In this document: positions 1-47,068 of the stretch, piece by piece
Position numbering within the stretch: the first letter of the stretch is position 1
Layout: each line of letters begins with the position of its first letter
DNA from: a virus
Reading direction: 5' to 3' (one strand)
IMG/VR virus record: IMGVR_UViG_3300046817_000437
Coordinates: 1-47,068 of that record
DNA length: 47,068 nt
The notes under the pieces: model-generated
Told to the model about the DNA's origin: nothing
The model's database searches: none
Seen by the model: the letters and a program-made list of their open reading frames with translations, nothing else
Translations under genes and position numbers: made by a program

Positions 1-127
1 TCCGACGCCGGGACATGCTCCGGGCGAAGGAACACTTGCGGAGGGCGCTGGGATGCAGCCGGGAGACGGCGGAGAGCCTGTCGCTGACTGAACTCGTCGA
101 CACGTATATCGAAGTCGTGGAGGACAA
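1..127. repeat. 127-bp terminal direct repeat, left copy
   Basis: Bases 1-127 are identical to 46942-47068. Joining the two ends at this repeat makes a circle of 46,941 bp and restores an open reading frame that crosses the junction. The length 127 equals a common maximum k-mer of short-read assemblers, so this is most simply an assembly overlap of a circular or circularly permuted molecule. A genuine short terminal repeat is not excluded. Confidence 0.97.
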
Positions 128-2651: not shown

Positions 2652-3052
2652 ACGATCCGATTTCCTTCGTTCTCCGGGGTCTCCGCTTCGAAATCAAACT
2701 AAACCCCCAAGACCGAGTGTCCCACGACTTCCTCGTTCGACACCAGCAGGAATTGCACACGGCGGTGCACGAAGCCGTCATGAACGTAACCACGGCGTGG
2801 AGAGGCGAATCCTATGAAGATTACCGTGACGCACGAAACGTCGACCGGACACAGACTGATGAATTACGCGGGCAAGTGCCGGCACCCGCACGGACACAAT
2901 TACCTCTGGCAGGTCTCGATCGAGGGGCGGATGGACGACGTACAGCAGGGACTCCTGGTGGACTTCTCCGATCTGAAGGGCGCGGTGCGCGAGGTGCTAA
3001 ACAAGTTCGACCACGCGTTCGTCCTGCGAAGCGACGACTACGCTCTCGCTAA
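2648..3052 (+). CDS. Hypothetical protein overlapping queD
   Basis: GTG 2648 overlaps the stop of the MazZ-like gene, as expected for a coupled start. The first 55 residues (NDPISFVLRGLRFEIKL to VTTAWRGESYEDY) look like real protein and fill the gap before QueD. The frame then runs 239 nt into queD, where its translation becomes Arg/Pro-rich and looks like a shadow. Either a genuine long overlap exists, or the gene ended near 2820 and lost its stop. No family recognised. Confidence 0.4.
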   Translation: MNDPISFVLRGLRFEIKLNPQDRVSHDFLVRHQQELHTAVHEAVMNVTTAWRGESYEDYRDARNVDRTQTDELRGQVPAPARTQLPLAGLDRGADGRRTAGTPGGLLRSEGRGARGAKQVRPRVRPAKRRLRSR

Positions 3053-3272
3053 CTGGCTAGTAGACAACGATCACGCACTCGTCGTCCTGAACGTGAATCC
3101 GACCGCCGAGAACCTCGCTCAGCTCGTCGCAGACGAACTCCGTGGGTTCCTGGGACTTCGGTTCGACGTCCACGTCACAGTGTGGGAGACGTCCAAGAAC
3201 TCGGCTGAGGCCTACGGACAAGTGGACCGAGTCATCCAGGTGATCGAGGTGCGTAATGTCCCAGTCATTTGA
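2814..3272 (+). CDS. queD: 6-carboxy-5,6,7,8-tetrahydropterin synthase QueD
   Basis: Converts 7,8-dihydroneopterin triphosphate to 6-carboxytetrahydropterin, the second step from GTP to preQ0. The 152-residue T-fold protein shows the zinc histidines H13, H26 and H28, the catalytic Cys22 in the CRHPHGHNY motif, an LVDFSDLK strand, the DHAF segment of the catalytic relay, PTAENLAQ, and a WET glutamate that would bind the pterin. It overlaps queE by 17 nt, implying coupled translation. The homologous PTPS family is excluded by the Cys-x3-His-x-His pattern. With FolE, QueE and QueC it completes a phage-encoded preQ0 route. Confidence 0.92.
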   Translation: MKITVTHETSTGHRLMNYAGKCRHPHGHNYLWQVSIEGRMDDVQQGLLVDFSDLKGAVREVLNKFDHAFVLRSDDYALANWLVDNDHALVVLNVNPTAENLAQLVADELRGFLGLRFDVHVTVWETSKNSAEAYGQVDRVIQVIEVRNVPVI

Positions 3273-3909
3273 TCCGACGTATGACGTCGTCGAAATCTTC
3301 CACAGCGTGCAAGGTGAAGGCCTCTACGCAGGCACCCCGATGACCTTCATCCGCTTTGTCGGGTGTAGCGTCGGCAAGAAGATCTGCCACCACTGCGATA
3401 CGGACTTTGACACGGCCCTGAACTGGAAGGGTGGGGGCCGGTTCTCCGTTGAGGAACTCGCAGGGAAGGTTCCGGAAGCGATGCAGCACGTGTGTTTCAC
3501 GGGAGGTGAGCCCCTAAACCAGACTCTCTTTCCTCTCGTAGACGCACTGCTCCAGAGGGGCAAATCCCTGCACATGGAGACGTCGGGAACTGTCCACTCG
3601 GAGGAGCTCAGAACACTTGCGCCGAACGTCTACATCTGCGTGAGTCCGAAGCCTGGGTTCTTGGACACGGTGATCCGGCTCGCCGACGAGATCAAGGTCA
3701 TCGTCCCAGGGCTCGGGAATGGCCCCGGTTGGCCGTCCTTAAAAGACGCCATAGACTGGGCGGAAGGCGGGAAGCTCGTGTACATCCAACCACGGAACGC
3801 AAAGCACGACGTCGACCAGTTGAACTTGCGCACGTGCCTCGACCTCGTACAAGCGTACCCGAGCCTTCGCCTAAGCGTGCAACTCCACAAGTTCCTGGTG
3901 GTGCAGTGA
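3256..3909 (+). CDS. queE: 7-carboxy-7-deazaguanine synthase QueE (radical SAM)
   Basis: Radical SAM enzyme that contracts 6-carboxytetrahydropterin to 7-carboxy-7-deazaguanine. Residues 14-37 carry the QueE signature HSVQGEGLYAGTPMTFIRFVG ending at the first cluster cysteine. The 4Fe-4S ligands are C37, C44 and C47 (C-x6-C-x2-C), followed by TGGEP (82-86), which contacts the SAM amino group. At 217 residues it is a normal length. ATG 3256 lies inside the end of queD, and the stop overlaps the next start (TGATG). The C-x6-C spacing is one of several accepted variants in QueE. Confidence 0.92.
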   Translation: MSQSFDPTYDVVEIFHSVQGEGLYAGTPMTFIRFVGCSVGKKICHHCDTDFDTALNWKGGGRFSVEELAGKVPEAMQHVCFTGGEPLNQTLFPLVDALLQRGKSLHMETSGTVHSEELRTLAPNVYICVSPKPGFLDTVIRLADEIKVIVPGLGNGPGWPSLKDAIDWAEGGKLVYIQPRNAKHDVDQLNLRTCLDLVQAYPSLRLSVQLHKFLVVQ

Positions 3910-4241
3910 TGCGACCCGTCCACGACATCGCTCGTGCCGTGCTTCGGATCCAGGGGCAAGTGAAGCACGTGCTCGTCGCATTCATCCAGCACGGCCATTC
4001 GGACTCCGGGTACCGGTACGAGGGCGTCTGTCCCATGTGTGCGGCTACGCTCGGGTACTTCGAAGAGGCAATCGATGCTATGGGCATGCCGGAGGAAATC
4101 CACCTCACGGAACTGCTCAACTCGCTCATGCAGCAGCGCATGCAACATTTCGAAGCATGCCCCCGTAAGGGAGCGTTCCGGCTCTCCGTGTTCCGGACCG
4201 ACAAGCCACTACAAACTGAGCAGAAGGACGTGACCCTATGA
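3909..4241 (+). CDS. Hypothetical protein between queE and folE, 110 aa
   Basis: ATG 3909 overlaps the queE stop, and the stop overlaps the folE start (ATGA), so it is translated inside the preQ0 operon. Visible features: an N-terminal helix (DIARAVLRIQGQVKHVLVAF), a CPMC pair near residue 40, and a C-terminal half rich in Met and charged residues (LMQQRMQHFEACPRKGAF). The Cys pair plus nearby His could bind zinc. No family recognised; a role in base modification is possible from position only. Confidence 0.7.
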   Translation: MRPVHDIARAVLRIQGQVKHVLVAFIQHGHSDSGYRYEGVCPMCAATLGYFEEAIDAMGMPEEIHLTELLNSLMQQRMQHFEACPRKGAFRLSVFRTDKPLQTEQKDVTL

Positions 4242-4795
4242 ATGCGAAGAAAATGCAGGCTGGTGTCAAGCTCTTGCTCGACGGGATGGGTGTTCCACTG
4301 ACAGACCCGGATTTCAAGGACACTCCACGCCGCGTCGCCCGGATGTACACGGAGATGTTCAAGCAGGAGAAGCTCCGGACGAAGGAAGTGAGTTTTCCAG
4401 CCACATACACCGAGATGATCGTGCTGCGGAACCACCACGTCTTCACGATGTGCCCACACCACCTCATGCCGGTCGAACTCGTCGTCACGATTGGATACGT
4501 CCCACGGAAGACAGTACTCGGCCTGAGCAAGCTTGGCCGGGTTGCCCAGTTCCCGCTCACCAAGCCCTTGAAACAAGAAGAATACACGGACTCCGTCGCC
4601 TGGAAGCTTCACCAGATCTGTGATCCGCTCGGGGTCGGCGTCTACGTAGTCGGCCAACACGGGTGCATGCGGTACCGCGGGTTGAAAACAACGGGGGACG
4701 TGGTCACGCAGAGGCTGCGGGGACAGTTCCTGCATAACGTCGCCATGCGGCAGGAGTTCACGGACATCATTCGGCACGGAAACGGTGGTCACTGA
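4238..4795 (+). CDS. folE: GTP cyclohydrolase I FolE
   Basis: Opens the GTP ring to make 7,8-dihydroneopterin triphosphate, the first step to preQ0. At 185 residues it is shorter than E. coli FolE, lacking most of the N-terminal extension. The zinc site is intact: C72 and H75 in the CPHHLMP motif and C143 in HGCMRYRGLK. GLSKLGR (94-101) and TPRRVARMY (29-38) are diagnostic. It overlaps both neighbours by 1-4 nt, in an operon with queD and queE and followed by the DNA polymerase. Supplying this committed step would free the phage from host folate regulation. Confidence 0.93.
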   Translation: MNAKKMQAGVKLLLDGMGVPLTDPDFKDTPRRVARMYTEMFKQEKLRTKEVSFPATYTEMIVLRNHHVFTMCPHHLMPVELVVTIGYVPRKTVLGLSKLGRVAQFPLTKPLKQEEYTDSVAWKLHQICDPLGVGVYVVGQHGCMRYRGLKTTGDVVTQRLRGQFLHNVAMRQEFTDIIRHGNGGH

Positions 4796-7212
4796 TGGAC
4801 AAGGTTAAGGAGAAACCTACCCACTGCATCGGGTGTCCGTTGTACGATGCTCCTGGGCCAGTGCCCGGACACGGCCCGCCGAAGGCTTCCGTGATGGCGG
4901 TGGGCGAGGCCCCTGGGCATGATGAGGTTACGTATACGGGACGGCCGTTTACCGGAGGCAGTGGCCGGCTCCTGAAAGGTCTCATGGGCAAGTCGGGGCT
5001 CAAGCCGGACGGTGTGTACTTTACGAACACGGTGAAGTGCAGGCCCCTGCTAAAGAACGTGGACGGGACCCTAGCCCTGAACAAGGAGGGGAAGCCCCAG
5101 GACCGAGCCCCTACGAAGGAAGAGATCGCCCACTGCTCGTGCTTCTTGCAGGAAGAACTCACGATCCAAAGGCCGAACCTCGTCCTCGCCCTAGGAGCGA
5201 GTGCACTCTATGCGTTCAAAGACACTAACCAGATCGGTAAATTCCGAGGAGTTCCGTTCAAAACACCCACTGGACAAAAGGTTCTCGCAACCTTCCACCC
5301 AGCCGCCCTCATGCGACAGCAGCACATGTTCCCCGCCGTCATCACCGACTTACAAACAGCGGCTGCTGAAGCAAAGAGTCCAAACCTGCACGTCGCTAAC
5401 GTCCAGTATCGGATCGACGCTCGCCCGGACACTTTTGGTCCAGATGTTCTCCTCGCTGCCAGGCAAGCTGGGTACCTCGTCTTTGACTGGGAGACCACTG
5501 GACTCCGAGCGGACACGAGTACATATCAGTGTGTGGGACTTACCTCGAAATCACACGAGGCTGCGTGTTTCCCTTGGTCCCCTGGTACTCAGCGGCTCAT
5601 GGAGGAACTCTTTGCTGACCCTCGTATCGAAATCGTCGGGCAGAATTCGGAGGACTTCGACTTGCGGTACTGGGAAGAGAAAGGGAACCCGACGCCGGTA
5701 GGCCGCACGTTCGACACGATGCTTGGGTTCCACTTGGTCAACCCGGACCTGCCGAAGAAACTCGAAGCCATCGGCTCCTACCACGCACGGGACGTGCAGC
5801 CGTGGAAGGGCCCGAACATGTACAAGGGTTCGTTCGAAGACCTGCAGAAAGGGTGTTGCACGGATGTGGACGTCACTTGTCGAGCGTATCTCGACCTGCA
5901 GAAGGAGATGGCGTTGATCGGGGTGAAGGACCTGTACTACAACTCCGTCATGCCCCTGCAGCCCGTGCTCCGCAGGATGACCAGAGGCGGGATCAAGAAG
6001 GACATAGTCCGCGCGGCGAAGATCGGAATGGGGCTGTTAGCGGTTGCGGAACGTAAGGAGAAGCTTCTCCGAGACGGCCTGGGTAAGCCCTACCTGAACT
6101 TGAACTCACCCAAGCAACTTATGGAGCTGCTCTACGAGGACCTTGGGTTGCCCGTGCAATACGCCAAGTCCGGGAAGCACGAGATGAGGCCCACAGCCAA
6201 CGCGGAGGCAATGGACAAGCTGGCCGAGCTCACGGACAACCCAATCTTCCACCTGGTGAACGAGGTGCGGACTGCTCGCAAGTGGAAGTCGACGTTTGCG
6301 GACGTCGAAACGGACGACGATGACTACGCACACCCCCACTTCGGCTGTGCGAAGGCAGCTAATGGCCGTTTGAACTCCTGGGACTTCAACGCACAGAACG
6401 TTCCGAATGACATGCGAGTCATTTGGATCCCGGACTCTCCCGACCACGTGTTCATAAGCACCGACTGGTCCCAGATCGAGTGGCGCATCGCCATGGCCTT
6501 GGCAGGTGATGAAGCCGGCCTCCGCATGTTCGCGTCCGGCATCGACATGCATACGGGCGTTGCGGCTGAGGTCGACGGCCTGCGGATAGAAGACGTCACG
6601 CCGCAGTTGCGACATATGGCGAAGTTCATCGTCTACGGCCTGGCCTACGGACGGGAAGCCCGCAGCATCGCGAAGGCACGAAAGATCGACTTGTCCGTCG
6701 CCCAAGACTTCGTGACGAAGTTCTTCGGCAAGTTCCACCGGTATAAGGCCCACCGGGACCTCCAGTCCAAGTTCGTAGAGAAGAACTCGTACTTGCGGAA
6801 CCCGTTCTCCCGCCGCAGGTGGTGGTACACTCGCACTCCGACAGAAGAATACAACTTCAACCCGTCTTCGTCCGCTGCCGACATGATGTACCTTGTCATG
6901 CCGAAGGTCGAGCAGCAGCTGCCTGCGGGCGCACGTATGGTCTTGACCGTGCATGATGAACTCGTTACCTGTGCACATCGGAACGTAGCCGCGCAAGCGG
7001 CCGAATGCATGAAGCAGTGTATGCAGCGGGTCTTCGACCAGATCACGGAGGCAAGTCTCTACCCGGACGTCGTCCGCCAGTACTACCCGAACGGGTGGTG
7101 GGCTCCGGTGGAAGTGTCCTTCGGGACGAACTGGTCCCAGTGCAAGGAGAAGACTCCGGTTGATAAGGCAGCAAGTAAACAGATCGCTAAGGAGGTTGGT
7201 TATGCCCACTAG
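4795..7212 (+). CDS. Uracil-DNA glycosylase / 3'-5' exonuclease / DNA polymerase A fusion
   Basis: An 805-residue replicative polymerase with an extra N-terminal domain. Residues 1-190 match a family 4-type uracil-DNA glycosylase: C11 and C14, C82 and C114/C116 as likely 4Fe-4S ligands, the GEAPG loop at 37-41 followed by GRPFTGGSG, and HPAAL at 168-172. Residues 225-390 hold a DEDD exonuclease, starting with D231-W-E233. The polymerase follows: motif A with D557 (TDWSQIEWR), motif B R606-x3-K610-x3-Y614-G, motif C H720-D721-E722. All catalytic residues appear present. The fusion would put uracil excision at the fork. Start ATG 4795 overlaps the folE stop. Confidence 0.92.
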   Translation: MDKVKEKPTHCIGCPLYDAPGPVPGHGPPKASVMAVGEAPGHDEVTYTGRPFTGGSGRLLKGLMGKSGLKPDGVYFTNTVKCRPLLKNVDGTLALNKEGKPQDRAPTKEEIAHCSCFLQEELTIQRPNLVLALGASALYAFKDTNQIGKFRGVPFKTPTGQKVLATFHPAALMRQQHMFPAVITDLQTAAAEAKSPNLHVANVQYRIDARPDTFGPDVLLAARQAGYLVFDWETTGLRADTSTYQCVGLTSKSHEAACFPWSPGTQRLMEELFADPRIEIVGQNSEDFDLRYWEEKGNPTPVGRTFDTMLGFHLVNPDLPKKLEAIGSYHARDVQPWKGPNMYKGSFEDLQKGCCTDVDVTCRAYLDLQKEMALIGVKDLYYNSVMPLQPVLRRMTRGGIKKDIVRAAKIGMGLLAVAERKEKLLRDGLGKPYLNLNSPKQLMELLYEDLGLPVQYAKSGKHEMRPTANAEAMDKLAELTDNPIFHLVNEVRTARKWKSTFADVETDDDDYAHPHFGCAKAANGRLNSWDFNAQNVPNDMRVIWIPDSPDHVFISTDWSQIEWRIAMALAGDEAGLRMFASGIDMHTGVAAEVDGLRIEDVTPQLRHMAKFIVYGLAYGREARSIAKARKIDLSVAQDFVTKFFGKFHRYKAHRDLQSKFVEKNSYLRNPFSRRRWWYTRTPTEEYNFNPSSSAADMMYLVMPKVEQQLPAGARMVLTVHDELVTCAHRNVAAQAAECMKQCMQRVFDQITEASLYPDVVRQYYPNGWWAPVEVSFGTNWSQCKEKTPVDKAASKQIAKEVGYAH

Positions 7213-7639
7213 GTTTAACGAAGAAACGCTTTCCTACCACCGGGAAATGGACATTAGGGTCGTCGCGGGGTCCCTGGCAAGTTGTGGGAGCCCGGTCGAC
7301 GTCTACCTGCCGAGGGAGACCGACTTGTTCCTCGACTTGGACTCCGCCAGTTCTCAGACGAAGTTCCTCGAGATGAAGGCGTTTATCGAGAGATCGCACT
7401 CGCCACTTGTGATCGTGTACTGGGGACAATCCCGGCATAACGGGCACCATGTGATCGTCCGGTTGGATCACCACATCACACCGTTAGAACGGATCACGTT
7501 CCAAGCCGTGTTAGGGTCGGATCCCCGCCGGGAAGCCCTCGCGCTGATCGACTACATGACTCCGAGCATCCACCCACTCACTTGCTTTTTTGAGAAGCCG
7601 GGAACCGTGATCCCGGGATACGAGAAGGAGACGCTGTGA
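7202..7639 (+). CDS. Small AEP-primase-like (PrimPol-fold) protein, 145 aa
   Basis: ATG 7202 lies inside the end of the polymerase gene, after AAGGAGG. It resembles the catalytic half of archaeo-eukaryotic primases: an acidic D45-x-D47 pair (LFLDLDS), a downstream strand with SRHNGHHVIVRL (residues 77-88) matching the sxH metal-site motif, then LTPLERI-type helix and VLGSDPRRE. It lacks a recognisable zinc or helicase domain. A separate DUF3987-like ATPase lies two genes on, so the two could form a split primase-helicase. Assignment is by motif reading only. Confidence 0.5.
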   Translation: MPTRFNEETLSYHREMDIRVVAGSLASCGSPVDVYLPRETDLFLDLDSASSQTKFLEMKAFIERSHSPLVIVYWGQSRHNGHHVIVRLDHHITPLERITFQAVLGSDPRREALALIDYMTPSIHPLTCFFEKPGTVIPGYEKETL

Positions 7640-8385
7640 AACTCGCAATGGAGATTCCGACACATCACCTCGAGGAAGTGTCACATGTTTGTGACGTGGA
7701 CTTTGCCCTCGCCCATATGGTCCTGAACAACAAGGACTACGAACACTTCTACCGGGACCAGCGAGCGAAGGGTCGCTTCGTCCTCCTGGACAACGGGATG
7801 TATGAGATGGGCGAGCCCCTCTCATGCACGGAGATCTACGAGGCAGCAGACCGGATCAACGCAAGCGTCGTGTGCCCGCCCGACAAGCTCGGCGACGCGA
7901 AATTCACGTATGACAAGTTCGAGGAGATGCGGGTGCACCCGAAACGGTACAACAAGGACCTTATGCTAGTCCTGCAGGGGAGTACGAGCGACGACCGCCT
8001 GAAGCTCTTCATGCACAGCATGGCCCACGTCAAGATGCTGGCGTTGCCGTTCCGAGAGCCTCGGCTCCAGTGGTTCACGGACTTGCTCCGGGCGGTCCCG
8101 GCCCACGTGCGGTGGCCTGGGCGCTTGCACTTGATGGGCGTGAATGAGCTCGACGAGCTCAAGGCCTTTGCCGGGCTCTTGAACGAACCTTCGGTTGCCT
8201 GGAACCCGGCTCTCGTCACGGTCGACACGGCCAAAGCCGTGAAGCACGCCATCGCCGGCAAGTACTTGTGGGAAGTCGAGAACATGCGGACAGGGGCCAA
8301 GTTGGACCACGAGGCGAAACTAGACGGCGCCCAGCTCAAGCGCGTCTTCGCAAATACCGCATACCTCCGTACCTGGATGGTCTAG
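7636..8385 (+). CDS. dpdA: DpdA-like DNA 7-deazaguanine transglycosylase
   Basis: A TGT-like barrel of 249 residues, the expected size for phage DpdA and far shorter than cellular TGT. Matching features: VLLDNGMYE with D52 at the position of the TGT substrate-binding aspartate, CPPDKLGD (80-87), LVLQG (111-115), RLHLMGVNELDEL (163-173), and VTVDTAKAV with D197 at the place of the TGT nucleophile. It would exchange guanine in DNA for preQ0 made by FolE, QueD, QueE and QueC. The TGT zinc site is not obvious. Start GTG 7636 and stop overlap both neighbours. Exact base delivered is inferred from absent partner enzymes. Confidence 0.8.
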   Translation: MKLAMEIPTHHLEEVSHVCDVDFALAHMVLNNKDYEHFYRDQRAKGRFVLLDNGMYEMGEPLSCTEIYEAADRINASVVCPPDKLGDAKFTYDKFEEMRVHPKRYNKDLMLVLQGSTSDDRLKLFMHSMAHVKMLALPFREPRLQWFTDLLRAVPAHVRWPGRLHLMGVNELDELKAFAGLLNEPSVAWNPALVTVDTAKAVKHAIAGKYLWEVENMRTGAKLDHEAKLDGAQLKRVFANTAYLRTWMV

Positions 8386-9773: not shown

Positions 9774-10192
9774 CGACTTGGGAACGTTTTTACAAGCAGC
9801 TCGGGTACGAGTCGGAGAAGGCGATGTGGGAGGAGATGTACACGCAATACACGATGAAGGAGCTAGCGGATCAGTTCAACGTCTCCGTCGGGCTCGTACG
9901 AAACAGGCTCTTGTACGCCGGGATCACTCCGAGGAAGCGGGGCGGGCCGCAATCAAGCCTCGTGGACTTCGGGATGTCGGATGAGCTCGTTCTCCGGATC
10001 AAGACCGAAGGCTTGGCCGCCATCGCCAAGGAACTTGGACTGAGCAAATACGCAGTGATGACCCGCCGGAAGAAATTCCTCCGCAGCAAGGGCGAGGGGG
10101 CTAAAAGCCCTTCGGCTGAGGTCCCTGAGACGGCTGCAGACCCATTATCGCCGCCCCTGCTCCCTGGAGATCCCCCTGAAACAGGTGACTAG
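9770..10192 (+). CDS. Helix-turn-helix protein, last gene of the rightward unit
   Basis: ATG 9770 overlaps the preceding stop. Residues 28-50 (TMKELADQFNVSVGLVRNRL) form a clear HTH, and a second HTH-like segment lies near 85-105 (GLAAIAKELGLSKYAVMTRR). Two HTH units in 140 residues suggest a DNA-binding regulator or a small-terminase-like protein. The last 30 residues are Pro-rich and overlap the end of the leftward ejection-protein gene by 92 bp. Specific target unknown. Confidence 0.7.
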   Translation: MTTWERFYKQLGYESEKAMWEEMYTQYTMKELADQFNVSVGLVRNRLLYAGITPRKRGGPQSSLVDFGMSDELVLRIKTEGLAAIAKELGLSKYAVMTRRKKFLRSKGEGAKSPSAEVPETAADPLSPPLLPGDPPETGD

Positions 10193-12152
10193 CGGCACCG
10201 TAATAGTGTTCGATCGCGGCTTCGTAGGGAATCGAGAACTTGAATGCGAAACGCTCGAGGCGGTCTTTGGCGAGGGCTGCTTCGGGCGTGTCCGCGTTCC
10301 CCTGGGCCATAGCACTTGCGACGGTCATGGCGTCCATACCCGCGTGCATGTAGGGCCCACCATCCCACCACCCAGCCTGCCAGACGGACCACCGGCTAGC
10401 GTTCGCTCCGAACAACGCACTCGTTGCACTGAGCATTGCGTAGTTTAAGGCCGCGACCGTCCCGAAGGCTTTGACTTTGTTCTTCGTCAGGATCTTGTCC
10501 CCGGAGAAGGCCAATTGGCCCCAGCTGCTGGCGAAGGACAGGGGCCACGTGCCGAAGCGCCCCAAGAACCTGCCCATGGTTCCCGAGAGGATACTAGGGA
10601 CGGATCCCCGCTTGTACGAGAACTGACTGGTGATCTGGAACGCATCCGCCGCTTTGTGCGCTGCGGTCCGCACGTCCCCCTGATCCAACAGGTTCTTCAC
10701 GAGCAGGGTGGTAGGCCCATCCTTCTCATCTTGCAGATCCAACATCGTGTTCTCTCGGAACTGTTGGAACGAGATCTTGCCGTCGACGTACGCCGGCGCC
10801 TCCTTCATCACGGCTTCGTGCATACCCATGTACGCGCTTACGCGGGTGAAGTTATCCGCGAAGGTTATGCCTTTCAGGCCCTTTTGGTTTAGTTCCGTGA
10901 CCTTGTTCATTGCGCGGCCCATCCGCGTATTCGTGCTCTGCGTGATGTCTTCTCCCAGACCCAAAGGCTGGCCCGTGATGTGCCGCAGCGCCATGTCCTT
11001 TTGCAAGTCCTCGTCCTTCAGCCACTTAACCGCATAGCGGAGACCTGCCGCCGTATACTTCATCCCGAGCCGCGGAGCCGTCGTCTGCAAGATCTGCATC
11101 ATCTGCATGGGGACTTGGGCCGGGTTGTAGGTCATCCGGCTTATGTACCCCCAGCTGGCGATCGCTCCGAGGACGTCGAACGTGTCCTTGTTCGTCAAGT
11201 TCGGTTTGAGTCCGAATTTGCCACGGGTGATTGTTTGCATCGCCCCGTCCAAGTTCTCGATGATCTTCTTCCCCAGGGCCATGCTCTGGATAAGCGTGTC
11301 ATCAGGACTGTGCTTCACTTCCGTGAGGTAGTCTCGCCACCGATTCCGGATGTCCTGGGGCACCTGCACGACGCGGAAGTAGTCCTCCATCTTCTTCTGG
11401 GTGTCGTTCCAGAACGGGGTAAGTTCCTTCTCATACGCCATCATCCGACCGAGCCGCAGGCCGATGGTTTGAAAGTTTGTTTCTCGTTCGTCGATCCGGA
11501 GCGGACTCAGTCCCTGTTCCATTTGCTGCCGCACGAGCGAGACCATTCGGGGAAGGTAGCTCCGGGAACCGACGTACGACTTGAAGTTCCCGTCCATCTT
11601 CCGGAGAGTCGGGAAATCGTGGAAGAGTTCGGAGACGTCTTGTTCGTTAAACCCTAGGCTTGTTGCGTAGTCGTTCCACGCCTTCTTCAACGCGTCGACA
11701 ACCGGCTGCTGCTTCAACGGGATCAGCTTCCGGTAGGCTTCCGCATTTGCGGTGTCCCCGGACACCTCATGTTCGAAGGCGAGCTGGATGTTGGTTCGGG
11801 CTGCGGGATCTTTGATCCCCTTCGCAAGCGCGTTGATCCGGTCGGCAAACGGATTGACCTTGTTCACTGCGTTCGTCTGCTTGCTTTCCAACAGGTCGTA
11901 GTTCGTGCGGAACGGGATCTTGCTGCGGGTCTCCCAATCCTGGAAGAGCTGCGGTGCGGGGACAAGCCTATCGAGTAACCGCATCGCCCGGAATTCCGGC
12001 GGGACCTCGGGGAGCAGGTCGGCCACCGCCGTCTCCATGATGGGAGGGGGTGTATGCGGATCCATGCCCTCGAAACTGAAGTCCTCGGGGAGATCGAAGT
12101 GATCTTCCAGCTCGGTGTGGTGGTCGTATTGATCGGGATCGCAGGGTTCCAC
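10101..12152 (-). CDS. Large virion protein, putative ejection protein, 683 aa
   Basis: Last gene of the leftward virion operon. GTG 12152 follows AAAGGAG. Long helical stretches dominate (residues 85-300), then a region of hydrophobic and Trp-rich segments (TFDVLGAIASWGYISRMTYNPAQVPMQMM; KAFGTVAALNYAMLSATSALFG) resembling the LPD38-like C-terminal domains of large phage proteins. Size, composition and position after two other big proteins match internal virion proteins of podoviruses that form a trans-envelope channel. No enzymatic motif was seen. Confidence 0.6.
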   Translation of the reverse strand: MEPCDPDQYDHHTELEDHFDLPEDFSFEGMDPHTPPPIMETAVADLLPEVPPEFRAMRLLDRLVPAPQLFQDWETRSKIPFRTNYDLLESKQTNAVNKVNPFADRINALAKGIKDPAARTNIQLAFEHEVSGDTANAEAYRKLIPLKQQPVVDALKKAWNDYATSLGFNEQDVSELFHDFPTLRKMDGNFKSYVGSRSYLPRMVSLVRQQMEQGLSPLRIDERETNFQTIGLRLGRMMAYEKELTPFWNDTQKKMEDYFRVVQVPQDIRNRWRDYLTEVKHSPDDTLIQSMALGKKIIENLDGAMQTITRGKFGLKPNLTNKDTFDVLGAIASWGYISRMTYNPAQVPMQMMQILQTTAPRLGMKYTAAGLRYAVKWLKDEDLQKDMALRHITGQPLGLGEDITQSTNTRMGRAMNKVTELNQKGLKGITFADNFTRVSAYMGMHEAVMKEAPAYVDGKISFQQFRENTMLDLQDEKDGPTTLLVKNLLDQGDVRTAAHKAADAFQITSQFSYKRGSVPSILSGTMGRFLGRFGTWPLSFASSWGQLAFSGDKILTKNKVKAFGTVAALNYAMLSATSALFGANASRWSVWQAGWWDGGPYMHAGMDAMTVASAMAQGNADTPEAALAKDRLERFAFKFSIPYEAAIEHYYGAASHLFQGDLQGAGAAIMGLQPSQGPQPKGF

Positions 12153-12164
12153 TTCGTGCTCCTT

Positions 12165-15100
12165 TTAACCGAGGAAGTTGCAAGGGGAGAAGCCCGGCTT
12201 GTTAAGCGTGTTCTGCTTGACTTCATCCGGGTAGATTCGATACGTGCGTCCGGTGACCGGATCGGCCGTGGGCTTCCCAGCCTCCATCAGTGACCGGTTG
12301 TTCACGTTCTTCGCCGCCGCGTAGAGAATCGAGGACTCGGGGTCGGGACTCGACAGGATCTCGAGGCCGGCATCCCGCTTCGCGAGGCCATCGATCATCT
12401 GCTCCGCGCTCTGCGCACGGACTTTCAAGTGCCGGTCGATGATCTCTCCGTATTGCTGCCGGAGTCTCTCGACTGTGTTCGGATTGTAAATTGCTACTAG
12501 AGACTTGTCCCCTTGGGTGATGCCGAGGTCCCGTGCCCGGAACGTGTTGGGGGTAACCCCCATACGGTCTTCGAGGCTCCGGAGACTCTTGCCAAGGCCC
12601 GAGTTATCCATTGCTTCACGGGAGAGGATTTCGGCCACTCCGGTCTTGCCGGCTGCCGCCGCAGCCTCCGCTCGGCTCCGAACCTTGTTCAGGGACTCTT
12701 CGCTAGCGACCCACACTTTTATTAGAGACCGTTGGTTCTGGATCAGGGAACCCAGGGCCACGTGCTGCACGTCCGAAGGGACGAAGTCTCCACCGTCCAC
12801 GGCCGGGTCGAATGACTTGATCCACCCGAGCTTCAAAACGTCATTCGCCTGCTGCTCAATCTTCGGTCCAAGAGTCTGCATGTTTTGTTTGGACAGAAAG
12901 CTAGCGGCTTCGAGTCGAGTCGGAAACTTAAGATCTCCTCCGTTAACGGTGTCTCGAAGTAGTACACCGACGCCGTCTGGAATCGCCCGGTATCCGCGTC
13001 GTACGGCGGCCACGCGCAACTGCGGCAGGTCAAACAATCCGGGCTCGGCGTGAGCAAGTTCTTCCAACGTCCAGGTCGGGGCACTACCTGCAGGATTCGA
13101 TCCATGGTGGTAGGTTTCTGTGACCACTACGTGAGCTGGGGTTTTCGGATCCATGTTCTTGCTCAGGAGCAAGCGAGCGGCTTTCTGCGCATCGGAGAAC
13201 GCGGGGTCGTCGATATTCAAGGACTTGTCGAGGGAGTACCGTTCCGGGTACTCCGTATACAAGTACGGACTGGGAGCCTTCGTTACTCTCGTGGTCTGTA
13301 GGCGACGACCGGCGAAGTCCTCGCCTTCGGTGCTCGCGGTGTATTCGCGACCACGAGCAGCAGCGGTTATTTCACCGACGGGCCCCGGCTGGTTCTCGTC
13401 GAATTCTCCTGGGGTTGTAACCCGCTCAAGGGGCTTGTATGCGCGGGAGCCCCGCCGCCACTCACCGCTTTGCGGGTCTCGGATCCAAGGCCTCTCCTGC
13501 ATTGCTTGAGGGACAAAGCCAGCCTGACGTTGGAAAGGAGCTTGCACAGTCCGCGTGGGGACCTGTTCCAGCGGGTCAGGCAGTCCATAGACCGTAGGCA
13601 TGTCTGGCCGGGGAACCCGCCGCATCACTGTACCGGAGGTAGTGGTCGGTGCAACGTCCCCAATGCCTTCATTATGTGCACTGCGTTCTGCGTAAGTACG
13701 GTAACTGCTTGGCGGGGTCCTTCCCGCATCCACAGAATCCAGGGGCCCTGCCTCAGCTTGCAACCCCCGGTCAGGGTAGGTCAGGAGCCTAGTGCCCTTG
13801 GTAACGGACAAGGTTACGGAGCCGTCCGGATGGATAAAGCCCCTGGGATCGTTGTTCAAGGGGCCGTCGTGGTCCACCATCGCGTACTGCGGACTGCGGA
13901 ACCAGTTGTTGGGCTGGTTGTTTCCATCCACTGCTTCGAACTCGACGGTCTTCGAAGCTAGGTTGAAAGCGATCCTGCGGTCGTCTCCGTCCGGGTGGGC
14001 TACGAACGTCTGCGGCGGTTGCTTCTCTTGTAGCCACACGCGCATGTTCTTCATTTCGACTGGGGCGGTTACTCCCGTCGTCCCATGGGTCACATCGACC
14101 TGGGTTCCCGACCCCCGCATGTTCTCCGGAGTCTGCGCAGCCTTCGCGACTTTCGGGTACGTGCGGGGCTTCGGCTTCGCCTCGAGAGCTTGTTGGGTTT
14201 CTTCCGTCGGCGGCGCGACGACCCCTACATACGGGGCTTTGTTCGGCTCACTAACCGTGACCTTGGTTCCCGCCTGCGGGACTACACCAGACTCCGCGAT
14301 GGTGCCGGCTGGAGCTGCCTGCCCGAGACTCTGTTCAAACGCGGTCTGCGTACGTGCGTCCATCTTCCCGAACTGGGCAGGTTCACCCTTTAGGCGTCTC
14401 GAGAACCGTTGCCAGGTGCCGACGCCGGCTACGGTGACGTTGTCAATGCGGACGCTCTTCCCGCCCTGGGACAACTGCGTGAGACGGTTTGCTACGAGAT
14501 CCGTGGTCTTGGCGAACTGTTGTTCGTTACCCGGACCTCCGCGAGTGATCTTGAACGGTTGGTCAGTCACTTTCTTGTTGTCGACGAAGACGTCGAACGA
14601 GATCCCGTATTGCGGGTCTAGGTCCCCGTTTACGGTTATGTTCTTAGGGACCACGTTATTCCAGTACTGGCTTACGGCGGCCTTCGCTTGGTAGCCTAGT
14701 GGGGTCTTTGCCAGGTCCGGGCGCTTCACTAGGGACTCAGCGAGGGCCGGTTCCATTACGCCGCCACCGCCCCGGATCTCCGCAAGCTTCGCTTCGACGG
14801 TTCCTGGGTCCTTACCCGTTTGTTCAGCAACGTCTGCGACTACCGACTTCGCGACCCTCGGGCCGACTTCTTCCTTCCACGCCTTGCTTAGGGGCATCCC
14901 CACGAACTCGAGACCTGCATTGACTGCGATGTCCTTCGCAACGTCCATCCAGTTGCTAACCCCGTCCTTGATCCGGAGCAGGTACGATTGAGTGCCGACG
15001 GCTAGGGAACTCGACGCCAGATGCGAGGTTAGCTTGGTTGCACCGTCTCCGACAACGGCTACTGCTTTCTTTGCAAGGCCTTTGCCCGCAGCGGTCTCTC

Positions 15101-15824
15101 CCAGTGCACTGATGAGCTCACCACTCGCCTTGAATGATACTGTATTCAGCGGGAGCTGACCGATTGTGTTGCCGACAAAGCCAGGTGTGCCGACTGATAT
15201 GTCCGGTAGGTTACGGGTATACGCTCCCGCAGCCTTCTGTGCGATCCACTGTTCCCAGGAACCGCTTGGGGCACTGCTTATCATGTCCCCGGACTCCGCC
15301 AGACGCTTCTGGGTTTCAGTGCTGAAGATGCCGGTCTTCAGTTGGACTTCGAGCTCTGCGATTTTCGGCTCTGCCCAGTCGCGGATTCCCTGCGCAGCCT
15401 TTGCCATGCCTAGGGGATCGAAGACCGCGTCCATGCCTGCCCGATTCATGAAGTCGCCGACTCCGGCTGGGATGCTAGCGACTCCTTGCATGATGCCGAG
15501 ACCCGCGAGTTTTGCTACGCGCAGCGCGATCCCGGTACCCGACATGGTCCCGCCGACGTCTGGGGGGCTGCCTCCTACTGCATCTTCGAGTTTGGTCCCG
15601 CTTACATGCACACTTCGGAGGGGAGTACTCTGGTCCTTGGGCTTCGGAGGCGGGGCCGCCGGATTCTTCGTTAAGAAGTCGTCGACGCTTTGCCCCATTG
15701 TGGGCCCGGCACTGGGCTTCGGCGCACCCTGCTCTTGCGAAGCAAGGAACTTGTCGACGTCATCAGCAACGGAGTACTTGTTCGGGCTCTGTTGCCCTGG
15801 GTCGGTCGGATCGAAAGTGTCCAC
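12165..15824 (-). CDS. Giant virion protein, putative ejection protein, 1219 aa
   Basis: Longest gene in the genome, starting at GTG 15824 one base after the upstream stop. Residues 15-60 hold two similar acidic segments (VADDVDKFLA and QSVDDFLTKN), a small internal repeat often found at the N-terminus of phage ejection or polyvalent proteins. Residues 85-130 and 240-300 are amphipathic and glycine-rich and could touch membranes. The middle (570-800) is Pro/Arg-rich. The C-terminal 300 residues are mixed alpha/beta. No transglycosylase or protease motif was found. Role inferred from size and from lying between the two other large proteins. Confidence 0.6.
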   Translation of the reverse strand: MDTFDPTDPGQQSPNKYSVADDVDKFLASQEQGAPKPSAGPTMGQSVDDFLTKNPAAPPPKPKDQSTPLRSVHVSGTKLEDAVGGSPPDVGGTMSGTGIALRVAKLAGLGIMQGVASIPAGVGDFMNRAGMDAVFDPLGMAKAAQGIRDWAEPKIAELEVQLKTGIFSTETQKRLAESGDMISSAPSGSWEQWIAQKAAGAYTRNLPDISVGTPGFVGNTIGQLPLNTVSFKASGELISALGETAAGKGLAKKAVAVVGDGATKLTSHLASSSLAVGTQSYLLRIKDGVSNWMDVAKDIAVNAGLEFVGMPLSKAWKEEVGPRVAKSVVADVAEQTGKDPGTVEAKLAEIRGGGGVMEPALAESLVKRPDLAKTPLGYQAKAAVSQYWNNVVPKNITVNGDLDPQYGISFDVFVDNKKVTDQPFKITRGGPGNEQQFAKTTDLVANRLTQLSQGGKSVRIDNVTVAGVGTWQRFSRRLKGEPAQFGKMDARTQTAFEQSLGQAAPAGTIAESGVVPQAGTKVTVSEPNKAPYVGVVAPPTEETQQALEAKPKPRTYPKVAKAAQTPENMRGSGTQVDVTHGTTGVTAPVEMKNMRVWLQEKQPPQTFVAHPDGDDRRIAFNLASKTVEFEAVDGNNQPNNWFRSPQYAMVDHDGPLNNDPRGFIHPDGSVTLSVTKGTRLLTYPDRGLQAEAGPLDSVDAGRTPPSSYRTYAERSAHNEGIGDVAPTTTSGTVMRRVPRPDMPTVYGLPDPLEQVPTRTVQAPFQRQAGFVPQAMQERPWIRDPQSGEWRRGSRAYKPLERVTTPGEFDENQPGPVGEITAAARGREYTASTEGEDFAGRRLQTTRVTKAPSPYLYTEYPERYSLDKSLNIDDPAFSDAQKAARLLLSKNMDPKTPAHVVVTETYHHGSNPAGSAPTWTLEELAHAEPGLFDLPQLRVAAVRRGYRAIPDGVGVLLRDTVNGGDLKFPTRLEAASFLSKQNMQTLGPKIEQQANDVLKLGWIKSFDPAVDGGDFVPSDVQHVALGSLIQNQRSLIKVWVASEESLNKVRSRAEAAAAAGKTGVAEILSREAMDNSGLGKSLRSLEDRMGVTPNTFRARDLGITQGDKSLVAIYNPNTVERLRQQYGEIIDRHLKVRAQSAEQMIDGLAKRDAGLEILSSPDPESSILYAAAKNVNNRSLMEAGKPTADPVTGRTYRIYPDEVKQNTLNKPGFSPCNFLG

Positions 15825-15825
15825 G

Positions 15826-17589
15826 CTAACCCCCGTATCCCTTCACGCCTCTGCCGACGGCGCTCACGCGAATGATCTCTTGCAAGTCGGTGATTGCCTT
15901 GGCAAGGGCAGCGCCATCGTTATTATCCTGGGCCGCGGCGGCCGCTTTCATCGCCGCACTTAGCTTGCCTCGGGTACTCGCATCGGTTTGCATGTACTCG
16001 GACTTCGCTAGTTCGATCGTGGTGCCTGCCCAGCCAGCTTGCTCGGGAGAGACTTTTCCCTTTGGAGGTGGAGCTACTGCTGTAGGGGCGATTGGTCTGC
16101 TGGGGCCGGAGGCAGTAGCTGTGCCAGCCGGAGCAGTGCCCTTGCCCGTGACGAGCTTAGTACCTACGGCTTTGAAGTAGTTCGTGAACATGTCGACCCA
16201 CCCAGGATCACTTGCGGGCATTGCATGCACGATCCCCTTCTGCACCATCAGCTGCTTGATTTGCGTCAACAACGGAGAGCCTGTCCTGTCCTTCTCCGGG
16301 CTCTGTTCCAAGACCTTGAACATCGAGTTGATTTCAGGGTCGTTTGCCCGCAGGTTCGTGATCTCAAGGTTGAGCTTGTCCACTTGCAGCTGACGGAGTT
16401 GCTCCTGCTGATCCTTGAACTTGGTCATGTCGAGGTTTGCGGGCAGCGGTCCTCCTTTTAGATACGAATCAGCCAGTTGCAGGGCTTGCATGGGGTCTAC
16501 GCCCGCCGCCATGAAATGCTCGCTTGCGGAAAGCGTATCCCGCTTCACACCGAGAGCGTACTGTGCTTGGGACAACCCGAACTCTTGCCGCCGGAGAGCT
16601 TCGCCCCGCACACTCATGTCGTATTCGAGACCCTTGTATGTGCTGGGCATCTGCGTTGGACGGTCTGGACGAAGGCCCGCTTCGAAGTCCGCCATCGCCT
16701 GCACCCGTTGCTGGTCGGTGACATCGGTGATGTGGTACACGTTGTTGATCATGTCCGTAGCCATCGCCCGTGCCTGCGTCTGCTTCCACTCCGTGGTTCC
16801 CGGGGTCTGCTCCAGGAGTTGGGTCGGAGTCAGCAGTGCTGGTTGGACCTCAGCCAGTGTGGCCGGGCGCCCCGTCAGCCCCATAATGTTGTCGAGGATG
16901 CTGTTGGAGTCGAGGCCCTTTTTCCGCATGTCTGTGATCTTCTGCTGTAGGTCCAGGGCAGAGATCTGCGCGGTGTCGGTCTTCTCCTGCAGCGGAGACT
17001 TCTGCATGCGGGGGAGAGGATTCTTCGTGCTTTGCCCGGGGACTACGATGTCGGAGCCCGTACCGTAGGTACTAGGCATGCCTCCGGAGGGACCGGTTGC
17101 CCCCGTCGTGATTCCTGTTGATGCGCTGGCTGCGCTGGTGATCCCGGCACTGGGAATGAGTGGGGGCATGCCCCCAGCTCTCGGCGGCTGCGCCGTGTCC
17201 CCTTCCCCAGGTGTCGGTTGCATCGGGCCGGTGCCAGGCGTAGCCTGCGGCGCGCCCCGCTGCTGGAGCTTCTGGTACAGGAACTTGGCAAACGGGTCCA
17301 AGGTCTGCGTGGCCTCCGCATCGCCTCTCCCCGGATCCATGAACCTCCGAACATTTGGATCATCAATCAACAGGTTGTACGTGTCCGGGTCCTTCATCCC
17401 GATCTGCGACAGCATGATGCGGAAGTCCGTTTGCTCCTTCTGCGTCTGCTGCGCTTTGAGCGTGGCGTCCTTCGCCTCCTGGGTCTTCTGCTGGATGATT
17501 TGACCCGTTTGGTTCAGGGCCTGGGCGAACATGTCCCAGCCGGACGGGCTGACAACCGTGTACCCGCCCTTACTTGTGATCTTAGGCAT
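15826..17589 (-). CDS. Virion protein, putative ejection protein, 587 aa
   Basis: Residues 15-60 form a strongly predicted helix rich in Gln and Ala (ALNQTGQIIQQKTQEAKD). Residues 110-200 are Pro/Gly/Thr-rich and probably disordered. Residues 260-460 are helical with many Gln and Leu. The N-terminal start ATG 17589 overlaps the end of the S74-type gene by 8 bp. Similar helical, Gln-rich proteins occupy this position in podovirus genomes as internal core proteins. No signature domain recognised. Confidence 0.6.
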   Translation of the reverse strand: MPKITSKGGYTVVSPSGWDMFAQALNQTGQIIQQKTQEAKDATLKAQQTQKEQTDFRIMLSQIGMKDPDTYNLLIDDPNVRRFMDPGRGDAEATQTLDPFAKFLYQKLQQRGAPQATPGTGPMQPTPGEGDTAQPPRAGGMPPLIPSAGITSAASASTGITTGATGPSGGMPSTYGTGSDIVVPGQSTKNPLPRMQKSPLQEKTDTAQISALDLQQKITDMRKKGLDSNSILDNIMGLTGRPATLAEVQPALLTPTQLLEQTPGTTEWKQTQARAMATDMINNVYHITDVTDQQRVQAMADFEAGLRPDRPTQMPSTYKGLEYDMSVRGEALRRQEFGLSQAQYALGVKRDTLSASEHFMAAGVDPMQALQLADSYLKGGPLPANLDMTKFKDQQEQLRQLQVDKLNLEITNLRANDPEINSMFKVLEQSPEKDRTGSPLLTQIKQLMVQKGIVHAMPASDPGWVDMFTNYFKAVGTKLVTGKGTAPAGTATASGPSRPIAPTAVAPPPKGKVSPEQAGWAGTTIELAKSEYMQTDASTRGKLSAAMKAAAAAQDNNDGAALAKAITDLQEIIRVSAVGRGVKGYGG

Positions 17590-19288: not shown

Positions 19289-19854
19289 GGAGAGGCCTCG
19301 TCAGCGATCAACCCGAGTAAGGTCATGTTCACGGGTCGGTTGTCTACAACCTGTGCATGTCGCACAAGGCCTTCGGGTTTGAATCCGACCCTCATCAGAA
19401 ACCTGCGCAATGCGCTTGAGGAGGCTCGGTTCTCGGTGTCGAGGAGAACGGCGTTTATGCGGAGAAGTTGGAACGCAGCGAACGCGTGCTTGAGTACGGC
19501 TCGGACTTGCGTTGTGCGGTAGGGACTCAGCTTCCGGTCCCAGAACACGACGTTTAGCGTAGCCGTTCCGAAGGGCCTTACGTCCGTCAGGTAAATGAGA
19601 CCTTCATCCCCAGCTTCTACGAAGTACGAGTCATGTCGGAAGACAAGCTGGTTGATGAACGAGTCCCCGTTTTCCCGGGGTACGTTTGTATCCTTGTACT
19701 GCATGAGCAGGTGCTGAAAGTCTTCGAGCCGATCGAACTTCAGCTCTCGGAGCTCGGCGAGCTTGTCTAGTACGTCAACGGGCTCCCCAGTACGAAGAAC
19801 GTTGCTTTCTGGTTCGCGGTCGAGCACCGGAGGAATATCTGGGACTTGGTCCAT
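19249..19854 (-). CDS. GNAT-fold acetyltransferase-like virion protein, 201 aa
   Basis: Start ATG 19854 begins MDQVPDIPPVLDREPE; the frame is open further upstream, but that stretch overlaps the neighbouring gene. The order FVEAGDEGLIYLTDV, ATLNVVFWDRKLSP, a helix ending in the FAAFQLLRINAVLLDTENRAS segment, then RRFLMRVGFKPEGLVRHA, matches the GNAT fold with its strand-4/helix-3 cofactor region and Asn. GNAT-like proteins of this kind are common in tail modules of podoviruses, where they are structural or modify a partner; activity is not proven. It sits between a fibre-like small protein and the S74-type protein. Confidence 0.6.
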   Translation of the reverse strand: MDQVPDIPPVLDREPESNVLRTGEPVDVLDKLAELRELKFDRLEDFQHLLMQYKDTNVPRENGDSFINQLVFRHDSYFVEAGDEGLIYLTDVRPFGTATLNVVFWDRKLSPYRTTQVRAVLKHAFAAFQLLRINAVLLDTENRASSSALRRFLMRVGFKPEGLVRHAQVVDNRPVNMTLLGLIADEASPWQLPTISSDKVL

Positions 19855-43371: not shown

Positions 43372-43611
43372 ATGAGCCTGAAGAATCCGAAGACGGGGGA
43401 GTCCGCTCCGTTCACTCTCCGTCAAGCCGCCGCGTACGACCACGCAACCGAAGCACGTTCGCGCCTGAGCGCGTGGGGCATCGTGTCCCGAGACCGTCAC
43501 ACGCGTGGAGTCTCCCGGAAGCAGACGCGCCTGCGGCGTAACGCCGGCGTCTCTCTCCAGCGTTGGCAGGAGATGAAGGCAGAGATGGCAGCAGCCGAGG
43601 CCACGAAGTGA
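43372..43611 (+). CDS. Hypothetical basic protein before queC, 79 aa
   Basis: ATG 43372 after AAGGAAGG. Starts MSLKNPKTGESAPFTLRQAA, then a basic helical part (RHTRGVSRKQTRLRRNAGVS; LQRWQEMKAEMAAAEATK). The stop overlaps the queC GTG start, implying coupled translation. No family recognised. Confidence 0.6.
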   Translation: MSLKNPKTGESAPFTLRQAAAYDHATEARSRLSAWGIVSRDRHTRGVSRKQTRLRRNAGVSLQRWQEMKAEMAAAEATK

Positions 43612-44297
43612 GCGGCCGCGCTGTCGTTCTCGTGTCCGGAGGCCTCGACTCGTGCGTCTCGCTCGCACTCGCCCACCGAGCTTACGGAGTAGGGTGCATC
43701 CCAGTGAACTTCGCCTACGGCCAGAGGCACTCGCGGGAGATCGTCGCAAGTACTCGGATCTGCGAGCACTACAACTTGGCGTATCCGATCACGTTCAACC
43801 TGGCTCAGGCGTTTCGGATGACGGGTGGGTCCAGTCTGACAAGCGGAGTCAACGAGGGGAATCCGTCGGAGGAACACGTCCTACGTACTGCGGACGCACT
43901 GCCGTCGACGTTCGTTCCCGGCCGCAACATCATCATGTTGAGCTTCGCCGCAGCCCTCGCCTACACGGAACGAGCGCAGGCGATCTACGGGGGATGGAAC
44001 CAACTCGACTACTCCGGCTATCCTGACTGCCGAACGGAGTTCCTCCTATCGATGGAGGACGCACTCGCCCACGGTCTTGATCTGCCACCTGGTGCACTTG
44101 CCATCCGTGCTCCGTTGGTCTCCATGTCCAAGGCGGAGATCATCCAACTGGGACAGGTGATCAACGCTCCTCTTCACCTAACCTGGTCGTGCTACGCGGG
44201 GGGATCGGCCCCGTGCGGTGAGTGCGACAGCTGCAAGATTCGCATCGCGGGATTTGCTACGCTCGGGGTCCCCGACCCCGCACTGGAGGCACTGTGA
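43608..44297 (+). CDS. queC: 7-cyano-7-deazaguanine synthase QueC
   Basis: Converts 7-carboxy-7-deazaguanine to preQ0 with ATP and ammonia. The PP-loop SGGLDS is at residues 10-15; YGQRHSREI and FVPGRNIIMLSFAAALA are typical; the C-terminal zinc site is C195, C203, C206 and C209 (C-x7-C-x2-C-x2-C). GTG 43608 overlaps the preceding stop; the frame's earlier ATG 43563 lies inside that gene. There is no fused amidotransferase domain, so it is a plain QueC making preQ0. It lies about 5.5 kb from queD across the circle junction. Confidence 0.93.
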   Translation: MSGRAVVLVSGGLDSCVSLALAHRAYGVGCIPVNFAYGQRHSREIVASTRICEHYNLAYPITFNLAQAFRMTGGSSLTSGVNEGNPSEEHVLRTADALPSTFVPGRNIIMLSFAAALAYTERAQAIYGGWNQLDYSGYPDCRTEFLLSMEDALAHGLDLPPGALAIRAPLVSMSKAEIIQLGQVINAPLHLTWSCYAGGSAPCGECDSCKIRIAGFATLGVPDPALEAL

Positions 44298-46005: not shown

Positions 46006-47032
46006 AGTAGACGGACTGCAACTCGTCCTGAACAGTGAGTTCAACGGGAGGCAGTCCTCGGTGCAAGAATACGTGGACTGCCACCGCAAGTACGGCTGGC
46101 GGCGGATCGAGAACCTCGAACCGGACAAGCCCTCCTGGGCTCTTGAATTCGGCTCAGCCACCCACATCTTCCTCATGGAGCAGAAGCGGGGCACGCCCCT
46201 CGCGGAAAGCATAGACAAGGGACTGGTGCGGCTGACCTCGAAATTCCCCAAGTCCATGTTCCCGGGGGACGACGAACTCCTGTACGAGCACCGGGAGATG
46301 GCCAAGAACATGTGGCCCGCGTACACTGCGTACTACGCGGACGAAGATGACATGACTCCGCTGGGCCTGGAGATCAAGGGGCGAGTGGAAGTCGGACAGG
46401 GTACCAACGTCTTCCTCGTCTTCACAATCGACTCGCTGGCGAAGCAGCTCGACCAGTTCTGGATCGTCGACCACAAGACCATGGCGAAGAACGACGATAG
46501 GAATTTCGAGAAGCATGCGTTCTCCATGCAGCTGACGGCGTATACGTACGGGGCTTCGAAAGTCCTCGGAGCCAGGATCGCAGGCGCCATGATCAACGGC
46601 TTGATCAAGACAAAGTCCCCACAGTTCCGGCGGGAGTTCTACATGCGGACGGACGCCGAGCTGCTCGAGTTCGAGAACGAGTTCCCGGAGATCGTTCGGG
46701 AAATCGCATGGCGCCATGCACGGGTCGCCGCTGGCGAGGACTGGAAGACAGTGTTCTACAAGAACACGGACCAGTGCATGTCGTATTACAAGTGCCCGTT
46801 CTTCGACCTCTGTGGGCATGACTCGGAAATGAACCGGACGATGTTCAAGAAGCGCGAACCGGACTACATGGACGATCCGAACATCCTGCTGAATCCCCCG
46901 AAGGAGCAAGCCGATGCTAGCACTGAGGTACGAGTTGGCGATCCGACGCCGGGACATGCTCCGGGCGAAGGAACACTTGCGGAGGGCGCTGGGATGCAGC
47001 CGGGAGACGGCGGAGAGCCTGTCGCTGACTGA
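45986..47032 (+). CDS. PD-(D/E)XK exonuclease with Fe-S cysteines (Cas4/AddB-like)
   Basis: 348 residues from GTG 45986. The nuclease core is WIVDHKTMAK with D162 and K164, then MQLTAYTYGASKV, the helix carrying the Q-x3-Y motif. Cys32 (YVDCHRKYGWRR) and C264, C270 and C276 (QCMSYYKCPFFDLCG) match the four ligands of a 4Fe-4S cluster in Cas4 and AddB-type nucleases. The C-terminal 45 residues are Gly/Pro/Glu-rich. With the Sak4-like ATPase and SSB-like protein downstream it forms a phage recombination set, likely resecting ends for annealing. Confidence 0.85.
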   Translation: MKDLQVEVDGLQLVLNSEFNGRQSSVQEYVDCHRKYGWRRIENLEPDKPSWALEFGSATHIFLMEQKRGTPLAESIDKGLVRLTSKFPKSMFPGDDELLYEHREMAKNMWPAYTAYYADEDDMTPLGLEIKGRVEVGQGTNVFLVFTIDSLAKQLDQFWIVDHKTMAKNDDRNFEKHAFSMQLTAYTYGASKVLGARIAGAMINGLIKTKSPQFRREFYMRTDAELLEFENEFPEIVREIAWRHARVAAGEDWKTVFYKNTDQCMSYYKCPFFDLCGHDSEMNRTMFKKREPDYMDDPNILLNPPKEQADASTEVRVGDPTPGHAPGEGTLAEGAGMQPGDGGEPVAD

Positions 47033-47068
47033 ACTCGTCGACACGTATATCGAAGTCGTGGAGGACAA
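46914..47068 (+). CDS. Hypothetical protein, 5' part of the junction-crossing gene
   Basis: ATG 46914 follows AAGGAG at good spacing and overlaps the last 119 nt of the exonuclease in another frame. It reads MLALRYELAIRRRDMLRAKE and continues at base 128 after the circle is closed, ending at 245 for a total of 90 residues. Confidence 0.45.
   Translation, partial: MLALRYELAIRRRDMLRAKEHLRRALGCSRETAESLSLTELVDTYIEVVED
46942..47068. repeat. 127-bp terminal direct repeat, right copy
   Basis: Identical to bases 1-127. See the left copy; the pair shows that the window is a closed circle with 127 redundant bases. Confidence 0.97.

Follow-up and report, generated by a model that had tools for sequence, protein, structure and literature searches.

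The window, meaning the whole 47,068-bp stretch of IMG/VR virus record IMGVR_UViG_3300046817_000437 (59.5% GC), encodes FolE, QueD, QueE, and QueC, together with a 249-aa DpdA-like protein (Table 1). The first and last 127 bp of the record proved identical in an exact comparison, which makes the genome a closed circle of 46,941 bp (46.9 kb); we read the terminal repeat as the assembly overlap of a circular phage genome. Genes for DNA metabolism run rightward and flank the circle junction on both sides, and leftward terminase, portal-type, head, and tail genes occupy ~10 to 35 kb. All five ORFs point rightward, with QueC located 5,458 bp (~5.5 kb) upstream of QueD across the junction. The coordinates and the identical ends thus bear out the arrangement described in an earlier note on this DNA, which had placed the genes at 2.8 to 8.4 kb and QueC at 43.6 to 44.3 kb, joined across the circle. 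The gene list needs a small correction: QueE and FolE are separated by a 110-aa ORF, and the transglycosylase gene follows FolE only after a UDG-DNA polymerase gene and a 159-aa ORF.

Table 1. Positions of the features in the window and the basis of each assignment
Feature	Position	Strand	Basis
Direct terminal repeat, copy 1	1..127	none	exact 127-bp end identity
dATP/dGTP diphosphohydrolase-like N-terminal domain protein, 146 aa	2211..2651	+	PF18909 (E 2.6e-16); phrog_801
QueD, 6-carboxytetrahydropterin synthase	2814..3272	+	PF01242 (E 6e-28); TIGR03367 (E 8.7e-24, just under its cut-off)
QueE, radical SAM 7-carboxy-7-deazaguanine synthase	3256..3909	+	TIGR04508 (E 1.5e-29, below cut-off); Radical_SAM (5.7e-6); phrog_2076 (E 1.7e-25)
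110-aa ORF	3909..4241	+	ATG overlaps QueE stop, stop overlaps FolE start (frame reading)
FolE, GTP cyclohydrolase I	4238..4795	+	PF01227 (E 8.4e-41)
Family A DNA polymerase with N-terminal uracil-DNA glycosylase (UDG) domain	4795..7212	+	PF03167 (E 4e-31); PF00476 (E 3.4e-58)
159-aa ORF, start uncertain	7160..7639	+	between polymerase and DpdA-like gene
DpdA-like DNA-guanine transglycosylase (predicted), 249 aa, GTG start	7636..8385	+	AlphaFold2 model, Foldseek, hhalign
QueC, 7-cyano-7-deazaguanine synthase	43563..44297	+	PF06508 (E 1.8e-58); TIGR00364 (above its cut-off)
Direct terminal repeat, copy 2	46942..47068	none	exact 127-bp end identity

A search with the first 20 kb found no nucleotide-level similarity to known phage records, so the virus represents an undescribed phage lineage. 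Weak portal-type matches are the sole basis for assigning it a short-tailed morphology. At positions 10101 to 19986, where internal virion or tail proteins are expected, five large ORFs (245 to 1219 aa) run leftward and have no PHROG match, and a 333-aa ORF upstream of queC (41721 to 42722) has no Pfam or PHROG match.

Profile searches identified all four preQ0 genes in the window genome. FolE, QueD, and QueC gave strong matches to curated models, and QueE fell under the QueE-model cut-offs with the right architecture. Consistent with the claim of the earlier note that catalytic residues are present, the active-site motifs of these pathway enzymes are intact, with variant spacing in QueE and QueC. 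The motifs CxxPHGH and the ETSKNSAEA segment are readable in QueD, the zinc-site motifs CPHH and QHGCMRYRG in FolE, and SGGLDS and CxxCxxC in QueC, where the full cysteine spacing, C(x)7CxxCxxC, is a variant of the textbook one. The radical SAM loop of QueE reads CX6CX2C, a three-residue insertion relative to the textbook CX3CX2C; in the alignment, this loop is common to the relatives L007, L009, and L011 but not to L012 and L013. QueC has no fused amidotransferase, and its start is uncertain, as the domain begins at about residue 19. Searches with working controls found no QueF, no GATase_6 (the amidotransferase domain of Gat-QueC), and no ArcS-type DUF5591 in the window genome, so the absences already pointed out in that note are real at the level of these domains.

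Directly upstream of queD lies the dATP/dGTP diphosphohydrolase-like ORF, possibly encoding an accessory nucleotide-pool enzyme; of the nine related phages or contigs that were tested, G001 alone has its domain. The UDG domain of the polymerase carries CxxC, GEAPG, and HPAA motifs, and near-full-length matches to the UDG-polymerase occur in L007, L009, L011 to L013, Microcystis phage Mel-JY34, and Pseudomonas phages. In its longer TTG form, the 110-aa ORF matched no Pfam or PHROG family. The 159-aa ORF has no Pfam, PHROG, or NCBIfam match and a partial match in the relative L011; comparison led us to reject it as a homologue of the ORF at the same position in Bacillus phage BSP7 or Weizmannia phage Youna2.

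No model of Pfam or NCBIfam matches the 249-aa protein, which belongs to two PHROG families listed without function. On its own it does not match the TGT model PF01702, which is matched weakly by 6 of 44 relatives (best E 0.0011) and is the most frequent Pfam match in the family. An AlphaFold2 model built from a 44-row alignment (mean pLDDT, 92.7; pTM, 0.89) was compared with the PDB using Foldseek. The top five matches were all TGT or DpdA, as were 12 of the 13 best, the remaining one being a designed TIM barrel; they include TGT 2pwu (E 9.3e-7) and the DNA preQ0 insertase DpdA 7ui4 (E 4.3e-6). The TM-scores are moderate (0.50 to 0.63), as expected for a minimal barrel. Among viral proteins, fold matches were obtained to R9TGF0 of Vibrio phage nt-1 (E 6.8e-7), which we take to be DpdA2 and whose gene lies outside the nt-1 segment that was retrieved, and to phage proteins named queuine tRNA-ribosyltransferase.

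Sequence comparisons lead to the same superfamily once family profiles are used. A PDB search with the single 249-aa sequence found nothing, and the family profile returned DpdA 7ui4 as the top chain, weakly (E 0.028 and 0.14). BLAST detected no similarity between the 249-aa protein and CAjan DpdA, and hhalign against single TGT or CAjan sequences gave probabilities of 2 to 8%. The clear result came only from an alignment of nine DpdA1-type proteins, including those of CAjan, 9g, and Rosebushvirus Arbiter (E 2.4e-5, 75.5% probability, 165 columns), in which the LDN/LDSG, PD/LD, HxxG, and DT/DS motifs of the window family and DpdA1 are collinear. Residues D52, D83, H165, G168, D197, and N240 are invariant in the 44 relatives and the cultured-phage members, and the catalytic aspartates D52, D83, and D197 are collinear with those of the TGT/DpdA superfamily. 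The protein is ~120 aa shorter than TGT and has only three cysteines, all in its N-terminal third; the C-terminal half contains no cysteine cluster corresponding to the C-terminal zinc site of TGT. Given the fold model, the profile homology to validated DpdA1, and the neighborhood of preQ0 genes (see below), we conclude that the 249-aa protein is a TGT-fold transglycosylase. The non-TGT fold, which the earlier note had named as the outcome that would count against its DpdA-like protein, did not turn up in either the HMM comparison or the fold prediction.

Relatives with 24 to 27% identity are present in Campylobacter phages CP220 and CPt10, Flavobacterium phage immuto, Youna2, and Bacillus phages such as BSP7, and a degenerate search of viral contigs yielded at least 543 candidate loci for the family. 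Among the 79 best distinct viral-contig loci of these, the query's own copy left out, 65 carry at least one preQ0 gene (FolE, QueD, QueE, or QueC) within the flanks that were retrieved, and all four are present at 32; reversed sequences, used as a control, gave none. The order QueD-QueE-FolE-PolA-DpdA is kept in distant contigs, and Youna2 and BSP7 have the same order except that PolA follows the transglycosylase, which argues that the clustering is not due to chance. In the tree, the window groups with 34- to 47-kb contigs that carry the UDG-polymerase fusion, on a branch distinct from those of CP220/immuto and BSP7/Youna2. As judged from the sequences, the window enzyme family is separate from DpdA1 and includes the homologues of CP220, immuto, Youna2, and BSP7.

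This family is probably the published DpdA3. A 2023 article by Cui et al. (NAR 51:9214) is said to have named DpdA3 as a subfamily of phages with complete guanine replacement, and it reportedly also arrived at a TGT-fold homologue in Campylobacter phages of the CP220 type. Full replacement of guanine fits CP220, whereas the window clade is a separate branch, though homologous to the CP220 enzyme (25% identity). The family member in CP220 is CPT_0056 (L004:6001-6774), annotated as hypothetical. Among Campylobacter phages, only CP220/CP21-like records carry the CP220-type gene (95 to 100% identity), and CC_R7 has one distant copy.

Several known systems resemble that of the window. BSP7 and Youna2 also possess QueD-QueE-FolE genes with a homologous transglycosylase of 256 to 262 aa, annotated as hypothetical. 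Their order is QueC-QueD-QueE-FolE-transglycosylase-PolA, with QueC inside the cluster, unlike in the window; moreover, they belong to another tree branch, share 24 to 25% identity with the window enzyme, and showed no UDG match in the alignment of their polymerase. Immuto (annotated DpdA, QQO91982) has QueD, QueE, FolE, and a transglycosylase of the same family in one operon, but QueF and a formyltransferase-like gene adjoin, so its final base is probably another. CAjan-type dPreQ0 systems likewise comprise FolE, QueD, QueE, QueC, and a transglycosylase, with no amidotransferase fusion or QueF (PMC6884629), although CAjan DpdA belongs to a different subfamily that is linked to the window enzyme by profile and fold only. 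A 2019 survey reported 25 plus 40 phages with DpdA and a preQ0 set, the 40 being those without an amidotransferase, almost all of them complete; two phages of the latter class were shown to carry dPreQ0, and three in the survey were Podoviridae (PMC6884629). The notion that a full set in a short-tailed phage is unusual, put forward in the earlier note, therefore applies to the rarity of the short-tailed host and not to the complete set.

Gene identities, fold, DpdA1 homology, and synteny all support a GTP-to-preQ0 set combined with a DNA-guanine transglycosylase, as proposed before, and we consider it very likely that this set and the TGT-fold enzyme modify the phage DNA and make it resistant to restriction. 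The phage's own FolE, QueD, QueE, and QueC would produce preQ0 from GTP, and the 249-aa enzyme would exchange guanine already present in the phage DNA, presumably after replication, for the 7-deazaguanine base, using D197 as the aspartate nucleophile predicted by alignment. DNA modified in this way would be expected to withstand host restriction enzymes.

The diphosphohydrolase-like ORF just upstream and the polymerase gene within the operon could also be accommodated by entry at the nucleotide level, in which the base is swapped on a free deoxynucleotide, dGTP is removed by the diphosphohydrolase-like protein, and 7-deaza-dGTP is inserted by the phage polymerase. Entry of this kind was formerly proposed for Campylobacter phages, which the survey treated as lacking DpdA and for which it suggested a DpdA-independent route (PMC6884629). 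Those phages carry a homologue of the window enzyme, however, and since the CP220-type phages encode this TGT-fold homologue, a DpdA-independent route is no longer needed. With the diphosphohydrolase domain absent in eight of the nine related phages or contigs and the 249-aa protein matching enzymes that exchange bases in polymeric nucleic acid, nucleotide-level entry seems very improbable. We give still less credence to the idea that the genes serve to raise host tRNA queuosine. Although the tRNA pathway also uses preQ0 and no cellular enzyme is nearer than TGT in the Foldseek search, the 249-aa protein differs from TGT in its missing Pfam match, its length, and the restriction of its cysteines to the N-terminal third, and QueF, which is needed for preQ1, is absent from the genome.

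DNA modification by the transglycosylase being the preferred reading, the identity of the final base is the next question. FolE, QueD, QueE, QueC, and DpdA without an amidotransferase result in dPreQ0 in Rosebush (28% of G) and CAjan (32%), and deletion of dpdA in CAjan abolishes dPreQ0 (PMC6884629). We infer that dPreQ0 is the most likely base in the window phage and favor it with some reserve. The earlier note had derived dPreQ0 from the gene set; it remains the best guess, but it cannot be deduced in this way. CP220 has the homologous transglycosylase, FolE, and QueC, and no GATase_6, QueF, or ArcS DUF5591 domain was found in it, yet 100% dADG has been reported for its DNA (PMC8306585), so the base cannot be read from gene content alone. 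Apparent QueF matches in Youna2, BSP7, and G001 were rejected, as they lie inside FolE genes, which have the same T-fold. By analogy with CP220, the same machinery in the window phage may end in the amide dADG, if a nitrile hydratase step has escaped recognition or the transglycosylase takes another substrate. We regard dADG as the main alternative but unlikely: CP220 is distant (177-kb genome, scattered preQ0 genes, other tree branch) and may encode a converting enzyme, and Rosebush and CAjan, which match the window phage in gene content, carry dPreQ0.

The extent of replacement is a separate matter. If the window protein belongs to DpdA3, near-complete replacement becomes a real possibility, and we tentatively entertain, as the less probable case, that essentially all guanines are replaced by preQ0 or ADG through a minimal 249-aa enzyme that is not motif limited. 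The nearest measured relative, CP220, is reported to be 100% substituted (PMC8306585).

Protection of phage DNA by 7-deazaguanines is already established as an anti-restriction trick. Of interest here are the distant, poorly annotated branch of transglycosylases, the identity of the base, and the extent of replacement. The present assignment gives a function to a family that PHROGs lists without one and that is spread over hundreds of viral contigs. Moreover, the operon is short and self-contained and would lend itself to expression in a laboratory host, to probe the replacement of some versus all guanines and the choice between dPreQ0 and dADG. If full replacement proves true, the 46.9-kb phage would represent a compact full-replacement system with a minimal 249-aa transglycosylase.
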